Positions 24,457 through 29,703 of a stretch of DNA of 33,849 nucleotides are shown one piece after another. The DNA comes from Azovibrio restrictus. Its GTDB lineage: Bacteria > Bacteroidota > Bacteroidia > Chitinophagales > Chitinophagaceae. Position 1 is the stretch's first letter, and the number at the start of each line of letters is the position of its first letter. The stretch spans positions 1 through 33,849 of the forward strand of contig JANLJF010000086.1 of NCBI GenBank assembly GCA_029255605.1, in the 5' to 3' direction. The notes under the pieces were generated by a model. It did no database searches and had not been told where the DNA came from. It saw only the letters and a program-made list of their open reading frames with translations. Made by a program: the position numbers and the translations under genes.

Positions 24457-25539
24457 TTACCTGTCTTTCTTAAAATCATCGGAGTGGGCAGGGCCATCTA
24501 TTTTAGACAATTCTATTTCCGGCCTGTTCACATCACTTACTTTATGTATATCCATCAAAAGTTTAGGGTCTTTACCTATTACTTTATCTATATATACAGG
24601 TTGTTTTTTAGTACCTACGTAGTGGCCTTGAGATATTACGCTGTGGCGGTCTATCTTAGATGGGCCTTCTATCGTCCAGTCGCTGACAGATTTGCGGTGG
24701 AAGCGGCAATCGTTACAGATAAACTCTTCTACCTCACCCCATTTATCCTTGCGGGCTGTAACGCGGAACACCTCGTCGCCACGCATCCACAAGCGCACTT
24801 TACCACTACACTTGGTGCAACTGCAATGTGCATCTACAGGTTTGGTAAACCACACCCTGTTCTTGAAACGGAAGGTTTTATCGGTAAGCGCACCCACCGG
24901 GCACACATCTATTACATTGCCAATGAATTCATTATCAAGCGATTTGCCCAGTAGTGTACTGATCTCGGCATGATCGCCGCGCTCCAGTATACCGTGCTCG
25001 CGCCTTTGGGTAAGCTGTTCTGCCGTAAACACGCAACGGTAGCAAAGTATGCAGCGCGTCATGTGCAGGGAGATGTAATCGCCGATGTCTTCTTTTTCAA
25101 ACGTACGGCGGTCGAACTCGTAGCGCGTGCCGGATGCACCGTGCTCATAGCTCAGGTCTTGCAGGTGGCATTCGCCGGCCTGGTCGCACACCGGGCAATC
25201 GAGCGGGTGGTTTATCAGCAGCATTTCTACTACACCCTTGCGCGCGTCTAGTACTTTTTCCGAAGTGATGTTTTTCACTTCCATACCATCCATCACTGTA
25301 GTGCGGCAGCTGGCTACCAGCTTGGGCATCGGGCGCGGGTCTTTTTCAGAACCCTTGCTTACCTCTACCAGACAGGTACGGCATTTACCACCGCTGCCTT
25401 CCAGTTTACTATAATAGCACATGGCAGGAGGAGTTACCTCGCCGCCTATCATACGCGCCGCATTCAGGATAGTAGTACCGGCTGGTACTTCTACCGTGAT
25501 ATTATCGATGGTTACTTTAAATTTCGGTTGTTCTGACAT
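24457..25539 (-). CDS. nuoG: Short NADH-quinone oxidoreductase subunit G
   Basis: NuoG carries iron-sulfur clusters passing electrons from NuoE/F towards NuoI. This one is only 360 residues, against roughly 680-910 for classical forms. The cluster-binding front part is intact: N1b ligands Cys41, 53, 56 and 78; N5 ligands His111, Cys115, 118 and 124; N4 ligands Cys163, 166, 169 and 213. The large molybdopterin-like domain is missing. In its place is a ~145-residue tail with five Cys (239, 241, 244, 275, 278). The spacing C-x-C-x2-C then C-x2-C differs from the CxxCxxxC...C of cluster N7. nuoH begins 32 bases after the stop, so no missing part is left in the operon. Short NuoG proteins are, as I recall, usual in Bacteroidota. 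The gap before it has the TTTTGAC-type repeat. Confidence 0.9.
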   Translation of the reverse strand: MSEQPKFKVTIDNITVEVPAGTTILNAARMIGGEVTPPAMCYYSKLEGSGGKCRTCLVEVSKGSEKDPRPMPKLVASCRTTVMDGMEVKNITSEKVLDARKGVVEMLLINHPLDCPVCDQAGECHLQDLSYEHGASGTRYEFDRRTFEKEDIGDYISLHMTRCILCYRCVFTAEQLTQRREHGILERGDHAEISTLLGKSLDNEFIGNVIDVCPVGALTDKTFRFKNRVWFTKPVDAHCSCTKCSGKVRLWMRGDEVFRVTARKDKWGEVEEFICNDCRFHRKSVSDWTIEGPSKIDRHSVISQGHYVGTKKQPVYIDKVIGKDPKLLMDIHKVSDVNRPEIELSKIDGPAHSDDFKKDR

Positions 25540-25563: not shown

Positions 25564-26913
25564 CTAAGCTGTAGTAGGAACATGGATAGGATCAGCATAA
25601 TGCGCCAGTCCAAAATTCCTTCTTTGCGATTCATCCGGGTTCAGCACATGCCATTCAAATTCATCGCGGAAATGGCGGATGGCAGCGGCTACCGGCCATG
25701 CAGCGGCATCGCCCAGCGGACAGATGGTGTTACCCTCTATCTTGCGCTGGATATCCCACAACAGGTCTATATCGCTCATCTTACCTTTCCCGTACTCAAG
25801 ATTCTTCAGTATTTTATACATCCAGCCGGTACCTTCACGGCAAGGGCTGCATTGTCCGCAACTTTCGTGGTTGTAGAAGCGCGCCAGCGTCATGGTATGG
25901 CGTACTACACACTGGTCTTCATCCATTACTATAAAGCCGCCCGAACCCATCATGGTACCGGTAGCAAAGCCACCATCGGCAAGGCTTTCATAGTTCATAT
26001 AGCGGGTTTCACCTTGTGCTGTTTTCAACAGCAGGTTGGCCGGCACTATAGGCACGGAAGAACCACCGGGGATGCAAGCCTTCAGGCGTTTGCCTTTAGG
26101 TATACCTCCGCAATATTCATCAGAGAAGATGAACTCTTCTACCGACTGGGTCATATCTATTTCGTACACGCCCGGCTTGTTTACATTACCGCATACAGAA
26201 AGCAGTTTGGTACCGGTAGATTTACCCACACCTATTTTAGCATATGCTTCGCCACCCATATTCAGGATGGGCACTACTGCTGCTAATGTTTCTACGTTGT
26301 TTACCACCGTTGGGCGCATCCACACACCTTGTATGGCGGGGAATGGCGGCTTGATGCGCGGGTTGCCACGCTTACCTTCCAGTGATTCTATCAGGGCTGT
26401 TTCCTCACCACAGATATAGGCACCGCCACCGCGCTGCACGTATATCTCGCAATCGAAACCGGTGTTCAGTATATTCTTACCCAGCCAGCCATTGTTTTTA
26501 GCTTCGGCTATGGCTTGTTCCAGTATATCTACTATCCATGCATATTCTCCACGGATGTATATATAAGTAGCATTGCAACCCAGTGCAAAGCTGCTGACGA
26601 TAAGGCCTTCTATCAGCAGGTGGGGCAGAAACTCCATCAGGTAGCGGTCTTTAAAAGTACCGGGCTCCGATTCATCGGCATTACAAACCAGGTGACGTGG
26701 CACACCTTCCGGTTTTGCCAGGAAGCTCCATTTCATACCCGTAGGGAAACCCGCACCACCACGGCCACGCAGGCCGCTTTTCTTCACCTCTTCCACTATC
26801 TCATCGGGCGTCATCTTAAAGGCTTTTTCCACTGCACGATAACCACCGTTTTTGCGGTAGGTATCGTAGTAGCGGATGCCTTCTACATGTGCATGTTCTA
26901 ATAATACTTTCAT
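25564..26913 (-). CDS. nuoF: NADH-quinone oxidoreductase subunit F (NADH- and FMN-binding)
   Basis: The catalytic subunit that oxidises NADH and passes electrons via FMN to cluster N3, on the cytoplasmic arm tip. The 449-residue protein has all markers: GLRGRGGAGFPTGMKW (47-62) and RGGGAYICGEETALIESLEG (161-180) for NADH/FMN binding, CNADESEPGTFKDR (77-90), and N3 ligands Cys352, 355 and 358 in SCGQCSPCREG plus Cys398 in TICPLGD. Unlike usual operons it does not directly follow nuoE: two unrelated genes stand between. The gap before its start is filled by a REP-like doublet. Confidence 0.96.
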   Translation of the reverse strand: MKVLLEHAHVEGIRYYDTYRKNGGYRAVEKAFKMTPDEIVEEVKKSGLRGRGGAGFPTGMKWSFLAKPEGVPRHLVCNADESEPGTFKDRYLMEFLPHLLIEGLIVSSFALGCNATYIYIRGEYAWIVDILEQAIAEAKNNGWLGKNILNTGFDCEIYVQRGGGAYICGEETALIESLEGKRGNPRIKPPFPAIQGVWMRPTVVNNVETLAAVVPILNMGGEAYAKIGVGKSTGTKLLSVCGNVNKPGVYEIDMTQSVEEFIFSDEYCGGIPKGKRLKACIPGGSSVPIVPANLLLKTAQGETRYMNYESLADGGFATGTMMGSGGFIVMDEDQCVVRHTMTLARFYNHESCGQCSPCREGTGWMYKILKNLEYGKGKMSDIDLLWDIQRKIEGNTICPLGDAAAWPVAAAIRHFRDEFEWHVLNPDESQRRNFGLAHYADPIHVPTTA

Positions 26914-26979
26914 AACCCTAAATCCCTAAAGGGACTTTTTTTAATATTTTATATCCGCCTCCCCTTCAGGGGTTGGGGG
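26914..26979. repeat. REP-like palindromic doublet before nuoF
   Basis: The whole gap between the NTF2-like gene and nuoF is an inverted-repeat element. The nuoF side (26914-26937) has CCCTAAAGGG with a second CCC block and lies directly against the ATG. The other side (26961-26982) has CCCCTTCAGGGGTTGGGGG, the same unit in opposite orientation. The AT-rich middle is about 23 bases. The outer arm reaches into the TAA stop of the upstream gene. Copies of the same unit precede nuoD and nuoE. Confidence 0.72.
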
Positions 26980-27402
26980 TTAAATCTTTGTACTCTGCCT
27001 GCTCAGCAGTTTCCATTCTTTATCCTTGTCTTTCCATACCCACACCTGCAATATGTGCAGTCTCAGCTTCACCTGTTTGCCATCCAGCGCCACATCTATG
27101 TCAGCTTCGGCACGTACGGCAGCCGTTTTTCCTTCTATCACAATATTCGGCGCGGTTTGTGATATACTGTTATATACCAGTTTGCCATTGTGCAGATCGG
27201 TTATTACCTCCTGCCGGCTTTCTATCCACCCGTTAGAGTGGCCGTAGCTCAGCTTTTTGTGCAATAAGCTTTTCAGCACTGCCGTATCTTTTTGCTGCAG
27301 GGCGCTGTTAAGGCCGCCCACGGCTTTTACCAGTGCCACGCTATCCTGCGCAGCTGCGGTATGATAAATAAAGAACAACAATATGATGTATATGTTTCGC
27401 AT
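26980..27402 (-). CDS. Exported NTF2-like (DUF4440/SnoaL-type) protein inside the nuo operon
   Basis: A 140-residue protein with a signal peptide (MRNIYIILLFFIYHTAAA, cleavage probably before QDS). The mature ~120 residues look like an NTF2-like alpha+beta cone: an initial helix pair VKAVGGLNSALQQKDTAVLKSLLHKKLSYGHSNG, then GRQ-like ESRQEVITDLHNGKLVYN, and long strands EGKTAAVRAEADIDVAL, KLRLHILQVWVWKDKDKEWKLLSRQSTKI. This matches DUF4440-type proteins. Some of that superfamily are enzymes, many bind small ligands; no catalytic role can be assigned. It is predicted periplasmic, whereas the neighbouring NuoE and NuoF are cytoplasmic. It begins 3 bases after the SRPBCC gene, so the pair is coupled. 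Confidence 0.78.
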   Translation of the reverse strand: MRNIYIILLFFIYHTAAAQDSVALVKAVGGLNSALQQKDTAVLKSLLHKKLSYGHSNGWIESRQEVITDLHNGKLVYNSISQTAPNIVIEGKTAAVRAEADIDVALDGKQVKLRLHILQVWVWKDKDKEWKLLSRQSTKI

Positions 27403-27405
27403 AGG

Positions 27406-27810
27406 TTATTTAAATCCTGTACTTAACACATATTCTTCCATCAATCCGAAAAACTGGTCTTCCCAGCTATCCTTATGGTCTTTCAACTCATCTTCGTTTG
27501 GCAATCCGGTATGATGCAATATCACTTTGGTGCCTTCGGGATGTGCTGTTAGTTTATAATGAACTTGCGACGGTTTGGCATCTGCATCCCACTCTTCTGT
27601 TTTCCAGGTATATGCCAGCTCGTCTTTCCCGGTTTTTAGTATCTCACCTTTCACCCAGCCGCCAAACATTTCAAACCTACCACCTACTTCTTTTTCAATT
27701 ATTGCATCCTCGCCACTCCACTTTCGCAGCAACACAGGGTCTGTTAATAGCTGCATTACTTTTTCGGGCTTAGCCGATACGATAAATTCCATATCCAGGT
27801 TCAGCGCCAT
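27406..27810 (-). CDS. SRPBCC / AHSA1-like domain protein inside the nuo operon
   Basis: A 134-residue cytosolic protein of the START/SRPBCC superfamily, closest in feel to the Hsp90-activator AHSA1-like group. It has the N-terminal strand LDMEFIVSAKPEKVMQLLTDP, LLRKWSG, the strand-turn EVGGRFEMFGGWVKGEI, ELAYTWKTEEWD and the final long helix SWEDQFFGLMEEYVLS. Such domains form a hydrophobic cavity and bind lipids or other small molecules; no ligand can be named. It starts 7 bases after nuoE and is followed 3 bases later by the NTF2-like gene. Nothing marks it as recently transferred except its odd place. Confidence 0.82.
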   Translation of the reverse strand: MALNLDMEFIVSAKPEKVMQLLTDPVLLRKWSGEDAIIEKEVGGRFEMFGGWVKGEILKTGKDELAYTWKTEEWDADAKPSQVHYKLTAHPEGTKVILHHTGLPNEDELKDHKDSWEDQFFGLMEEYVLSTGFK

Positions 27811-27817
27811 ATCTTAT

Positions 27818-28312
27818 TTAGTTGGTAGCTGCAGCCCTTAGTTCTTCTAATAGCTGGTCTACTTTTTCTTTTGTCAAAAACTCTTTATAATGCTTGCCCA
27901 ATTGCATCATCGGCGCATAGCCACATGCACCCAGGCATTCTGCAGGTTTCAGGGTAAACAGGCCATCGGGCGTAGTTTCACCTGCCTGTATGCCCAGTTT
28001 CTGCTTGATGTGGTCTATGATATCATCGCTGCCATTCAGCATACAAGGGCCGGTCTGGCATACTTCCAGCACATATTTACCTACCGGTTTCATATTGAAC
28101 ATGGTGTAGAAGGTAGCCACCTCGTACACCTCGATAGGCAATATTCCCAGCACTTCTGCCACATAGTCCATAACAGGCACATCCAGCCAACCGCCAAATT
28201 CTTCCTGCGCTATGTGCAGTACAGGTATCAGGGCGCTTTTCTGCTTCCCATCGGGGTAGCGCGCCATGATCTCTTTTACTTTATTCAGTTTTTCTTCCGA
28301 AAATTTTATCAT
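27818..28312 (-). CDS. nuoE: NADH-quinone oxidoreductase subunit E ([2Fe-2S] N1a)
   Basis: The thioredoxin-fold subunit that holds cluster N1a beside the FMN site of NuoF. The 164-residue protein has the ligands Cys85 and Cys90 (CQTGPC) and Cys126 and Cys130 (CLGAC), the expected CxxxxC and CxxxC patterns. The N-terminal helical bundle (1-80) is standard, including the VYEVATFYTMF segment. A REP-like doublet fills the gap from nuoD and ends exactly at its ATG. Confidence 0.96.
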   Translation of the reverse strand: MIKFSEEKLNKVKEIMARYPDGKQKSALIPVLHIAQEEFGGWLDVPVMDYVAEVLGILPIEVYEVATFYTMFNMKPVGKYVLEVCQTGPCMLNGSDDIIDHIKQKLGIQAGETTPDGLFTLKPAECLGACGYAPMMQLGKHYKEFLTKEKVDQLLEELRAAATN

Positions 28313-28390
28313 AACCCCAAACCCCTAAAGGGGCTTTTCTTTTTAAAGTTATATCTACACCTTTCCCTTTTGTAAGGGTCAGGGGCTTTT
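28313..28390. repeat. REP-like palindromic doublet before nuoE
   Basis: The gap between nuoD and nuoE. The nuoE side (28313-28336) has CCCCTAAAGGGG with a further CCCC block, directly against the start codon. The nuoD side has CCCTTTTGTAAGGG and CAGGGGC, a more degraded copy in opposite orientation, followed on the plus strand by six T. Same unit as before nuoD and nuoF. Confidence 0.72.
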
Positions 28391-29632
28391 TTACGCATCC
28401 AGTTCTCCTGCTATCACATTCAGGCTACTTAGGGTGATGATGGCATCACTCAGCAATCCGCCACTTACTATTTCAGGATATGCCTGGTAATAAATGAAGC
28501 ATGGCCTGCGGAAATGCAGCCTGTATGGCGTACGTCCGCCATCGCTTATCAGGTAATAACCCAGTTCACCATTGGCACCTTCCACTGCATGATACACCTC
28601 GCCCGGCAGTACTTCTATCTCGCCCATTATCATTTTGAAATGGTATATCAGCGCTTCCATCTTCGTGTACACATCTTCTTTTGCAGGCAGGTGAAAATGG
28701 TCGGCCTCCGGCGCATAGAAAATATCTTTCTGTGCAGGGTCTTCCTGTTCCAGCTTCGTTATTTTCTCCAGTGCCTGTTGTATTATTTTATAGCTTTCCC
28801 AGATTTCATCATTGCGCACCATGTAGCGGTCATATACATCGCCTGTAGTGCCCACCGGTATCTTGAAATCGAAATCTTCGTAAGATGAATATGGCTGCGC
28901 CACACGCACATCATAGTCCACACCCGCAGCACGCAGGTTAGGGCCTGTCATGCTGTAGTTCAGTGCACGTTCGGCACTTATTGGGCCGGCGCCTATACAG
29001 CGCTCCATGAATATACGGTTACGGTTCAGCAGGGCTTCAAACTCACGCATCACTTTAGGAAAGCCTTCCATGAATTTGTCAATCTTCTCCCATGCCACTT
29101 TACTGAAGTTGCGCTCGAAACCACCTACACGGCCGATATTGGTTGTAAGGCGGCTGCCGCACACTTCTTCGTATATCTCGTATATCAGTTCGCGCCATTG
29201 GAAAACGTAGGTAAAGCCGGTAAGGGCACCGGTATCCACCGCTACTACAGAGTTGCATATCAGGTGGTCGGCAATACGCGCCAGTTCCATAATGATGACA
29301 CGCATGTAGTCTACACGCTTGGGTGTCTTGATGTTCAGCAACTTTTCTATGGTCATGTGCCAGCCCATGTTATTGATGGGGGCACTGCAATAGTTAAGCC
29401 TGTCTGTAAGCGGGGTGATCTGATAATATGGCCTGCGCTCTGCGATTTTCTCGAAGGCGCGGTGTATATAACCGATAGTAGGCACAGTGCTCAGCACTTT
29501 TTCACCATCTATCTCCATGATGTTTTGGAAGACACCGTGGGTGGCAGGGTGCGTAGGACCAAGGTTCAGCGTAGTACTTTGCTTGGCCAGTGACTCTTCT
29601 GCGAGTTGTATATGATTTTGTTGTTCTGTCAT
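28391..29632 (-). CDS. nuoD: NADH-quinone oxidoreductase subunit D
   Basis: The 49-kDa-type subunit, 413 residues, related to [NiFe]-hydrogenase large subunits but without the metal site. Together with NuoB it forms the quinone headgroup site on the peripheral arm. Signatures: LNLGPTHPATHGVFQNIMEI with the His pair of the quinone site, TVPTIGYIHRAFEKIAE, LNYCSAPINNMGW, and near the end PSGELGYYLISDGG-like ANGELGYYLISDGGRTPYR. It is separate from nuoC, not fused. The gap after nuoC is a REP-like doublet ending against the nuoD ATG. Confidence 0.97.
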   Translation of the reverse strand: MTEQQNHIQLAEESLAKQSTTLNLGPTHPATHGVFQNIMEIDGEKVLSTVPTIGYIHRAFEKIAERRPYYQITPLTDRLNYCSAPINNMGWHMTIEKLLNIKTPKRVDYMRVIIMELARIADHLICNSVVAVDTGALTGFTYVFQWRELIYEIYEEVCGSRLTTNIGRVGGFERNFSKVAWEKIDKFMEGFPKVMREFEALLNRNRIFMERCIGAGPISAERALNYSMTGPNLRAAGVDYDVRVAQPYSSYEDFDFKIPVGTTGDVYDRYMVRNDEIWESYKIIQQALEKITKLEQEDPAQKDIFYAPEADHFHLPAKEDVYTKMEALIYHFKMIMGEIEVLPGEVYHAVEGANGELGYYLISDGGRTPYRLHFRRPCFIYYQAYPEIVSGGLLSDAIITLSSLNVIAGELDA

Positions 29633-29703
29633 ACCCCAAACCCCTAACGGGCTTATTGGTTTGGTTATAAATATTTATTACACCCATTACGGGTGTTTTT
29701 ATT
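29633..29703. repeat. REP-like palindromic doublet before nuoD
   Basis: The gap between nuoC and nuoD. The nuoD side (29633-29654) has CCCCAAACCCCTAACGGG directly before the ATG. The nuoC side has ACACCCATTACGGGTGT followed by a T-rich run on the plus strand. The two hairpins point in opposite directions. It is the most diverged of the three copies in the operon. Confidence 0.65.

Follow-up and report, generated by a model that had tools for sequence, protein, structure and literature searches.

A recurrent slot for small genes between nuoE and nuoF in the complex I operon of Chitinophagaceae

Two extra genes within a complex I operon

The window, by which we mean the whole stretch of 33,849 nucleotides analysed here, contains the 14 genes of a nuo (complex I) operon in canonical order and all on the minus strand, running from nuoA (31316) to nuoN (17162). 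While it shares gene content, order and orientation with the canonical operon, it differs in carrying two additional genes between nuoE and nuoF and in encoding a NuoG of just 360 aa. An earlier note on this DNA had placed an AHSA1-like and a DUF4440-type gene at this position with gaps of 7 and 3 nt, and both the ORF coordinates and Pfam confirmed the arrangement (Table 1). An NCBIfam search named nuoE and nuoF, and neither insert was matched.

Table 1. Features of the nuoE-nuoF interval and related elements, in window positions.
Feature	Position	Strand	Remarks
nuoE (NADH-quinone oxidoreductase subunit E)	27818..28312	-	upstream border of the slot; PF01257 (2Fe-2S_thioredx) 194.7 bits; TIGR01958 above cut-off
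AHSA1/SRPBCC gene, 134 aa	27406..27810	-	7 nt past the nuoE stop; PF08327 64.2 bits (curated cut-off 22.1); AF2 pLDDT 92.1; Foldseek matches to 3q63 and the Aha1 C-terminal domain
DUF4440/NTF2-like gene, 140 aa, signal-peptide-like start	26980..27402	-	3 nt past AHSA1; PF14534 54.5 bits (cut-off 25.2); AF2 pLDDT 91.0; Foldseek matches to 2r4i and 3fsd
Spacer between DUF4440 and nuoF, 66 nt	26914..26979		2 copies of a dispersed G/C-run repeat
nuoF	25564..26913	-	downstream border of the slot; PF01512 (Complex1_51K) 160.3 bits; TIGR01959 576.4 bits (cut-off 558.65)
nuoG	24457..25539	-	Pfam matches only N-terminal Fe-S domains
Dispersed repeats, CCCCTTTAGGGG..GGGG	26916..26935, 26961..26980, 28314..28333, 29634..29652		in the nuoC-nuoD, nuoD-nuoE and DUF4440-nuoF gaps

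The Pfam match of the first insert spans residues 13-125 of its 134 aa and is of the C-terminal AHSA1 type, with no other domain above cut-off. The confidently predicted structure adopts the helix-grip (SRPBCC/START-like) fold and is closest to the C-terminal domain of human Aha1 (8z3h; TMq 0.86, rmsd 1.5 Å) and to chains of 3q63 (Mll2253; TMq 0.76-0.82). Fold and Pfam family are therefore shared with the Aha1/AHSA1 C-terminal domains (8z3h, 1x53, 6xld) and with bacterial AHSA1 proteins (3q63, 2lak). However, unlike Aha1 the protein is a single domain, and the likeness is one of predicted fold and Pfam family; because the N-terminal Aha1 part is absent, we do not file it as an Aha1-type Hsp90 activator.

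The second insert has the NTF2-like fold, and the nearest Foldseek matches of its model are CHU_1428 (2r4i; TMq 0.77) and 3fsd ('of unknown function' by title). It shares fold and PF14534 membership with these DUF4440 proteins and differs from them in its signal-peptide-like start, a hydrophobic stretch ending AAAQ that was read by eye as a putative signal peptide. By a crude pattern, 48 of 54 DUF4440 ORFs found at this position in the family have a hydrophobic run of at least 10 within their first 60 residues. Taken together, the Pfam scores, AF2 models and Foldseek matches support the earlier assignment of both genes to families with ligand-binding cavity folds.

Scans with promoter and terminator consensus sequences, which are a poor fit to Bacteroidota, found neither signal for the inserts within 26880-28420, and no weight is given to this result. 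From their position, the two genes are probably co-transcribed with nuo. One form of the dispersed repeat has 7 copies in the genome (at most 3 mismatches), while its reversed pattern has 0; across 64 nuo loci the motif gave 43 matches, none within a nuo gene.

The nuoE-nuoF junction across the family

We surveyed nuo operons in the relatives of the window, finding nuoE in 141 and nuoF in 143 of 147 Chitinophagaceae genomes. For the gap count, 140 and 142 of these were used (G134 was left out), second and weaker matches were excluded, and 10 genomes whose genes do not share one contig and strand stand outside the 128 in which both genes are co-located. The distance between the two genes was bimodal, being below 280 nt in 54 genomes, which carry no insert, and at least 400 nt in 73, with one inconsistent negative value (G046). 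Gaps of at least 400 nt were thus present in 73 of 128 family genomes, compared with 8 of 51 co-located pairs in the order outside this family and 7 of 76 in the rest of the class (Fisher p = 3e-7 and 2e-12, respectively). In the order control, the genes were not co-located in 7 genomes, G223 is a member of the window's family, and G241, counted among the 8 wide gaps, probably owes its 8.9 kb, with genes on the opposite strand, to a rearrangement. The class control leaves out window-family genomes, G293 for its weak nuoE match, and nuoF matches that were weak (11) or partial (G380). The view that nuoE and nuoF are normally adjacent holds outside the family, where the gap was below 400 nt in 43 of 51 and 69 of 76 co-located pairs, but not within it. 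Among the titles and abstract openings returned by an open-access literature search, none dealt with extra genes between nuoE and nuoF.

Sequences were obtained for the 76 gaps of at least 200 nt and, additionally, for stretches of G005 and G079, giving 78 stretches. DUF4440 genes occupied 46 of the 73 wide slots, and 66 contained at least one of six recurrent families. Over all 78 stretches these were DUF4440 (48 genomes, 54 ORFs), VOC (17), NlpE (11), AHSA1 (9), AlkD-like (4) and retropepsin-like (4), the five names other than AHSA1 having been verified in Pfam on one example each. A DUF4440 ORF accompanies AHSA1 in seven of nine genomes; in an eighth (G136) DUF4440 is matched, but no ORF there begins with ATG. 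Typically NlpE, AlkD or one type of DUF4440 comes first, VOC or AHSA1 next and another type of DUF4440 last; in G005, DUF4440 lies upstream of AHSA1. AHSA1 and VOC never shared a slot, which at 9 and 17 genomes could be due to chance.

Both families of the window are tied closely to this junction. In the window's own genome the single AHSA1 match at E <= 0.001 is the slot gene itself. Orthologues were found in 9 of 147 family genomes; these nine matches, with at least 37% identity, all lie near nuoE, and the other 19 (at most 36%) do not. Among the DUF4440 matches in the 147 genomes, every one from rank 1 to rank 34 is close to nuoE or nuoF, and rank 35 is the first to fall elsewhere, in a genome whose slot is empty (G087). 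In a midpoint-rooted tree of the 54 slot ORFs with 12 non-slot paralogues, taken from the better-scoring non-slot matches rather than at random, the 12 grouped in a single clade (ultrafast bootstrap 99), distinct from several lineages of slot sequences.

Some slots hold further variations. In four (L158, L159, L160 and L162, from G125, G031, G001 and G101, respectively) the DUF4440 domain is part of a protein of 280-294 aa, and the one such fusion tested in Pfam (G001) has a SecDF_P1_head domain ahead of it. Two genomes belonging to different families (L189 and L164/L248) carry an AAA ATPase-like and DUF4435-like pair between nuoE and nuoF. Here and below, the names HicBA, HepT/MNT, GxxExxY, four-helix-bundle, AAA15/DUF4435, secreted M43-like peptidase, IspG and methionine-lyase-like were given by eye.

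A nuo-linked AHSA1 subfamily and its inheritance

We scanned 84,980 species genomes with patterns from the nine-sequence AHSA1 alignment, an approach that detects only relatives matching two peptide patterns, and recovered 66 loci, 8 of which match genomes of the family survey, so that the two sets partly coincide. In 44 loci the AHSA1 gene (at least 162 bits) adjoins nuoE, in 21 it scores at most 147 bits and the stretch examined contains no nuo gene (a sister group), and one (L240) is at a contig edge. Of the 45 loci of the nuo-linked subfamily, 44 thus have AHSA1 next to nuoE, and the remaining one is that contig edge. Record titles among the loci include Flavipsychrobacter stenotrophus RB1R16 (L245; the genus is a member of Chitinophagaceae) together with Taibaiella, Flavipsychrobacter and Chitinophagaceae MAGs. 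One record titled Phycisphaerales bacterium (L248, JASGCQ010000030.1) has a Chitinophagaceae-type nuo operon with AlkD, AHSA1 and DUF4440 in the slot, and its title is probably a mislabel.

The spacing at these loci is tight. In 36 of the 44, no more than 10 nt separate the nuoE stop from the AHSA1 start, one of these overlapping by a base; in the remaining eight the two are separated by DUF4440 (three loci), AlkD (three), a gene of 416 aa (one) or 66 nt (one). A DUF4440 match is present in 37 of the 44 slots; in 35 it lies downstream of AHSA1, and 22 of those 35 have a spacing between -11 and +9 nt. Downstream, nuoF was found in 40 loci; the contig ends in two (L227, L247), and in two others (L229, L236) different genes follow and nuoF is not within the stretch examined, AHSA1 staying with nuoE. 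The nearest relative (L207) has the same pair as the window, with identical gaps of 7 and 3 nt.

Several loci carry additional elements or altered frames. A HicB-HicA-like pair is located downstream of AHSA1 within the nuo operon of L208, L209, L211, L212, L213 and L250, and a HicB-like gene only in L224 and L227. The DUF4440 gene is split over two frames in L209 (5414-5850), and its frame lacks an ATG near the expected start in L234 (G136) and L224; decay of the cargo is a possible cause in all three.

Because the sister group occupies non-nuo settings in 21 of 66 loci, the wider group of AHSA1 genes settles in other operons too. Ten of the 21 are preceded by a gene of roughly 695 aa (693-713), which by eye resembles a secreted peptidase and gives no direct functional clue (L251, L255, L256, L258, L259, L261, L262, L267, L268 and L271); this is another fixed home. 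In L259, L261 and L262 they adjoin an ispG-like gene. Plasmid carriage of the subfamily was rejected: the 60 plasmid records matching AHSA1 are all rhizobial and all below 60% identity, with the eight listed at 31-33%.

For 11 close pairs of loci, dN/dS was 0.03-0.24 for AHSA1 (10 computable) and 0.05-0.38 for DUF4440 (7 computable), compared with 0.00-0.08 for nuoD, nuoE and nuoF, several dS values exceeding 1 and being saturated. Pairwise distances of AHSA1 correlated with those of NuoE (0.75) and NuoF (0.72), and those of DUF4440 with NuoF (0.55) and AHSA1 (0.51); the reference values were 0.81 for NuoE-NuoF and 0.87 for NuoD-NuoF, and 0 of 2000 permutations reached any of these correlations. 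AHSA1 and DUF4440 thus look to be maintained by purifying selection and inherited with the operon, DUF4440 more loosely. Taken together with the surveys, the pair is an old, inherited and maintained part of the nuoE-nuoF slot.

What the slot may be for

The inserts are encoded within the nuo operon and travel with it, but part of the lineage has complex I without them. Complex I does not need these genes, given that 54 of the 128 co-located genomes lack any insert and that the cargo differs between genomes; since a genome of the window's own genus (G094) has DUF4440 and no AHSA1 match at E <= 1e-10, in addition to the empty slots, we regard the inserts as dispensable. The earlier note had left the choice between assembly helpers, stress sensors and passengers. 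With empty slots, interchangeable cargo and sister AHSA1 genes in other operons, the evidence leans towards inherited, co-expressed passengers. We therefore favour, as the probable explanation, a cargo slot specific to the family that is inherited vertically, has been emptied repeatedly by loss, and holds dispensable, co-expressed, ligand-binding proteins with a protective role; a part in complex I itself ranks second, and selfish or neutral residence third.

Under this favoured explanation, an AHSA1 gene starting a few nucleotides past the nuoE stop and a DUF4440 gene overlapping or abutting it would be read within the nuo message, and the amounts of both proteins would follow respiration through nuo expression. 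The benefit may then lie in expression matched to respiration rather than in contact with NuoE or NuoF. Judging from the folds, the AHSA1 protein would most likely work in the cytosol, binding a client or a small hydrophobic ligand, while the DUF4440 protein would bind a small ligand outside the inner membrane, and both may be protective, with functions in stress or detoxification.

Accessory subunits of bacterial complex I are a related known case. Passages in PMC8762328 describe homologues of NDUFS4, NDUFS6 and NDUFA12 in alphaproteobacteria and Nqo16 in Thermus, which, like the slot genes, are small extra proteins restricted to some lineages; the slot genes differ from them in being missing from many genomes of the same family. 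The inserts might be lineage-specific helpers of complex I, with AHSA1 helping the NuoE/NuoF module to fold or to receive its cofactors, or offsetting parts absent from the short NuoG. We consider this unlikely. The main points in its favour are that the DUF4440 lineages and this AHSA1 subfamily are scarcely found outside the slot and that AHSA1 is closely linked to nuoE; a functional role in complex I would account for these as well. Moreover, AHSA1 divergence parallels that of NuoE, and its chaperone-like fold, resembling the Aha1 C-terminal domain, would be translated directly after NuoE. Yet the slot is empty or differently filled in many relatives, the DUF4440 protein looks exported whereas NuoE and NuoF are cytoplasmic, and the sister AHSA1 genes reside in other operons. 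The Pfam matches of NuoG, limited to N-terminal Fe-S domains, would suit a compensating insert, but the nuoG-nuoH spacing in 20 control operons suggests a short NuoG there also, including 10 with an empty slot, on which ground the idea that the inserts replace missing NuoG parts was rejected.

A somewhat less probable alternative is that the nuoC-nuoI region is a tolerant landing zone for small genes, including toxin-antitoxin-like pairs, and that AHSA1 and DUF4440 are two selfish or neutral tenants. The control operons, drawn at random as 10 wide and 10 narrow gaps from 63 well-assembled genomes (so that the nuoE-nuoF count is set by design), do have gaps of at least 300 nt at other junctions: FG 9/20, DE 3/20, HI 3/20, CD 2/19 and GH 1/20, with none in AB (18), BC (19) or IJ to MN (20 each). 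Dispersed repeats flank the insert block in the window, some loci have a HicBA-like pair separating AHSA1 from DUF4440, and HepT/MNT-like pairs occur in gaps outside the family. Nevertheless, purifying selection and divergence parallel to the Nuo proteins argue against mere tenancy, as does the identity of the cargo. Comparison of control ORFs (20 and 11 from wide gaps outside the family, 20 from other wide nuo gaps of the 20 family operons) with the six family models gave a single match at E <= 0.01, a 13.6-bit DUF4440 that we take as chance, and neither the other nuo gaps examined nor the 15 wide gaps outside the family yielded DUF4440, VOC, NlpE, AHSA1 or AlkD. DUF4440 and AlkD matches were likewise confined to the slot in the 44 nuo loci. 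Retropepsin-like genes occur in both places and count for the tenant reading: four weaker matches (26-31 bits; Pfam agrees for the 2 checked) lie between nuoF and nuoG, and with four loci in the slot and four in nuoF-nuoG we withdrew this family as slot-specific. Other gaps thus do carry extra genes, but the notion that any nuo gap will do was rejected for the set as a whole, the other five families having been seen nowhere else in the nuo stretches examined.

The nuoF-nuoG gap, too, is frequently filled (9 of 20, as above), by other kinds of gene, named by eye as GxxExxY-like (L167, L172, L174) and four-helix-bundle-like (L173, L177).

More doubtful still is a combined proposal, in which the slot would carry an exchangeable, lineage-specific accessory kit for complex I, a cytosolic AHSA1-fold factor (VOC elsewhere) attending NuoE/NuoF with their short NuoG partner and exported DUF4440- or NlpE-type factors serving on the outer face of the membrane. 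Finally, although the same-genus genome G094 has no AHSA1 match at the threshold used, chance insertion in this single strain has next to no credibility and was ruled out, because both genes, or one of them, were met again between nuoE and nuoF in the family survey and in the 44 nuo loci of the species genomes, down to the same spacing in L207. What the earlier note had set as its refutation, a pair limited to this strain or lying away from nuo in relatives, was not borne out.

Looking forward, the order of nuo genes is usually treated as fixed, and here one family reuses a single junction for a small and specific set of cargo. The result is a natural experiment, in which the same complex I is found with the slot empty, with DUF4440 only, with AHSA1 and DUF4440, with VOC or with NlpE. 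It also places two poorly understood families, DUF4440 and the bacterial AHSA1 proteins, in a testable context, for example in the cultured Flavipsychrobacter stenotrophus RB1R16.
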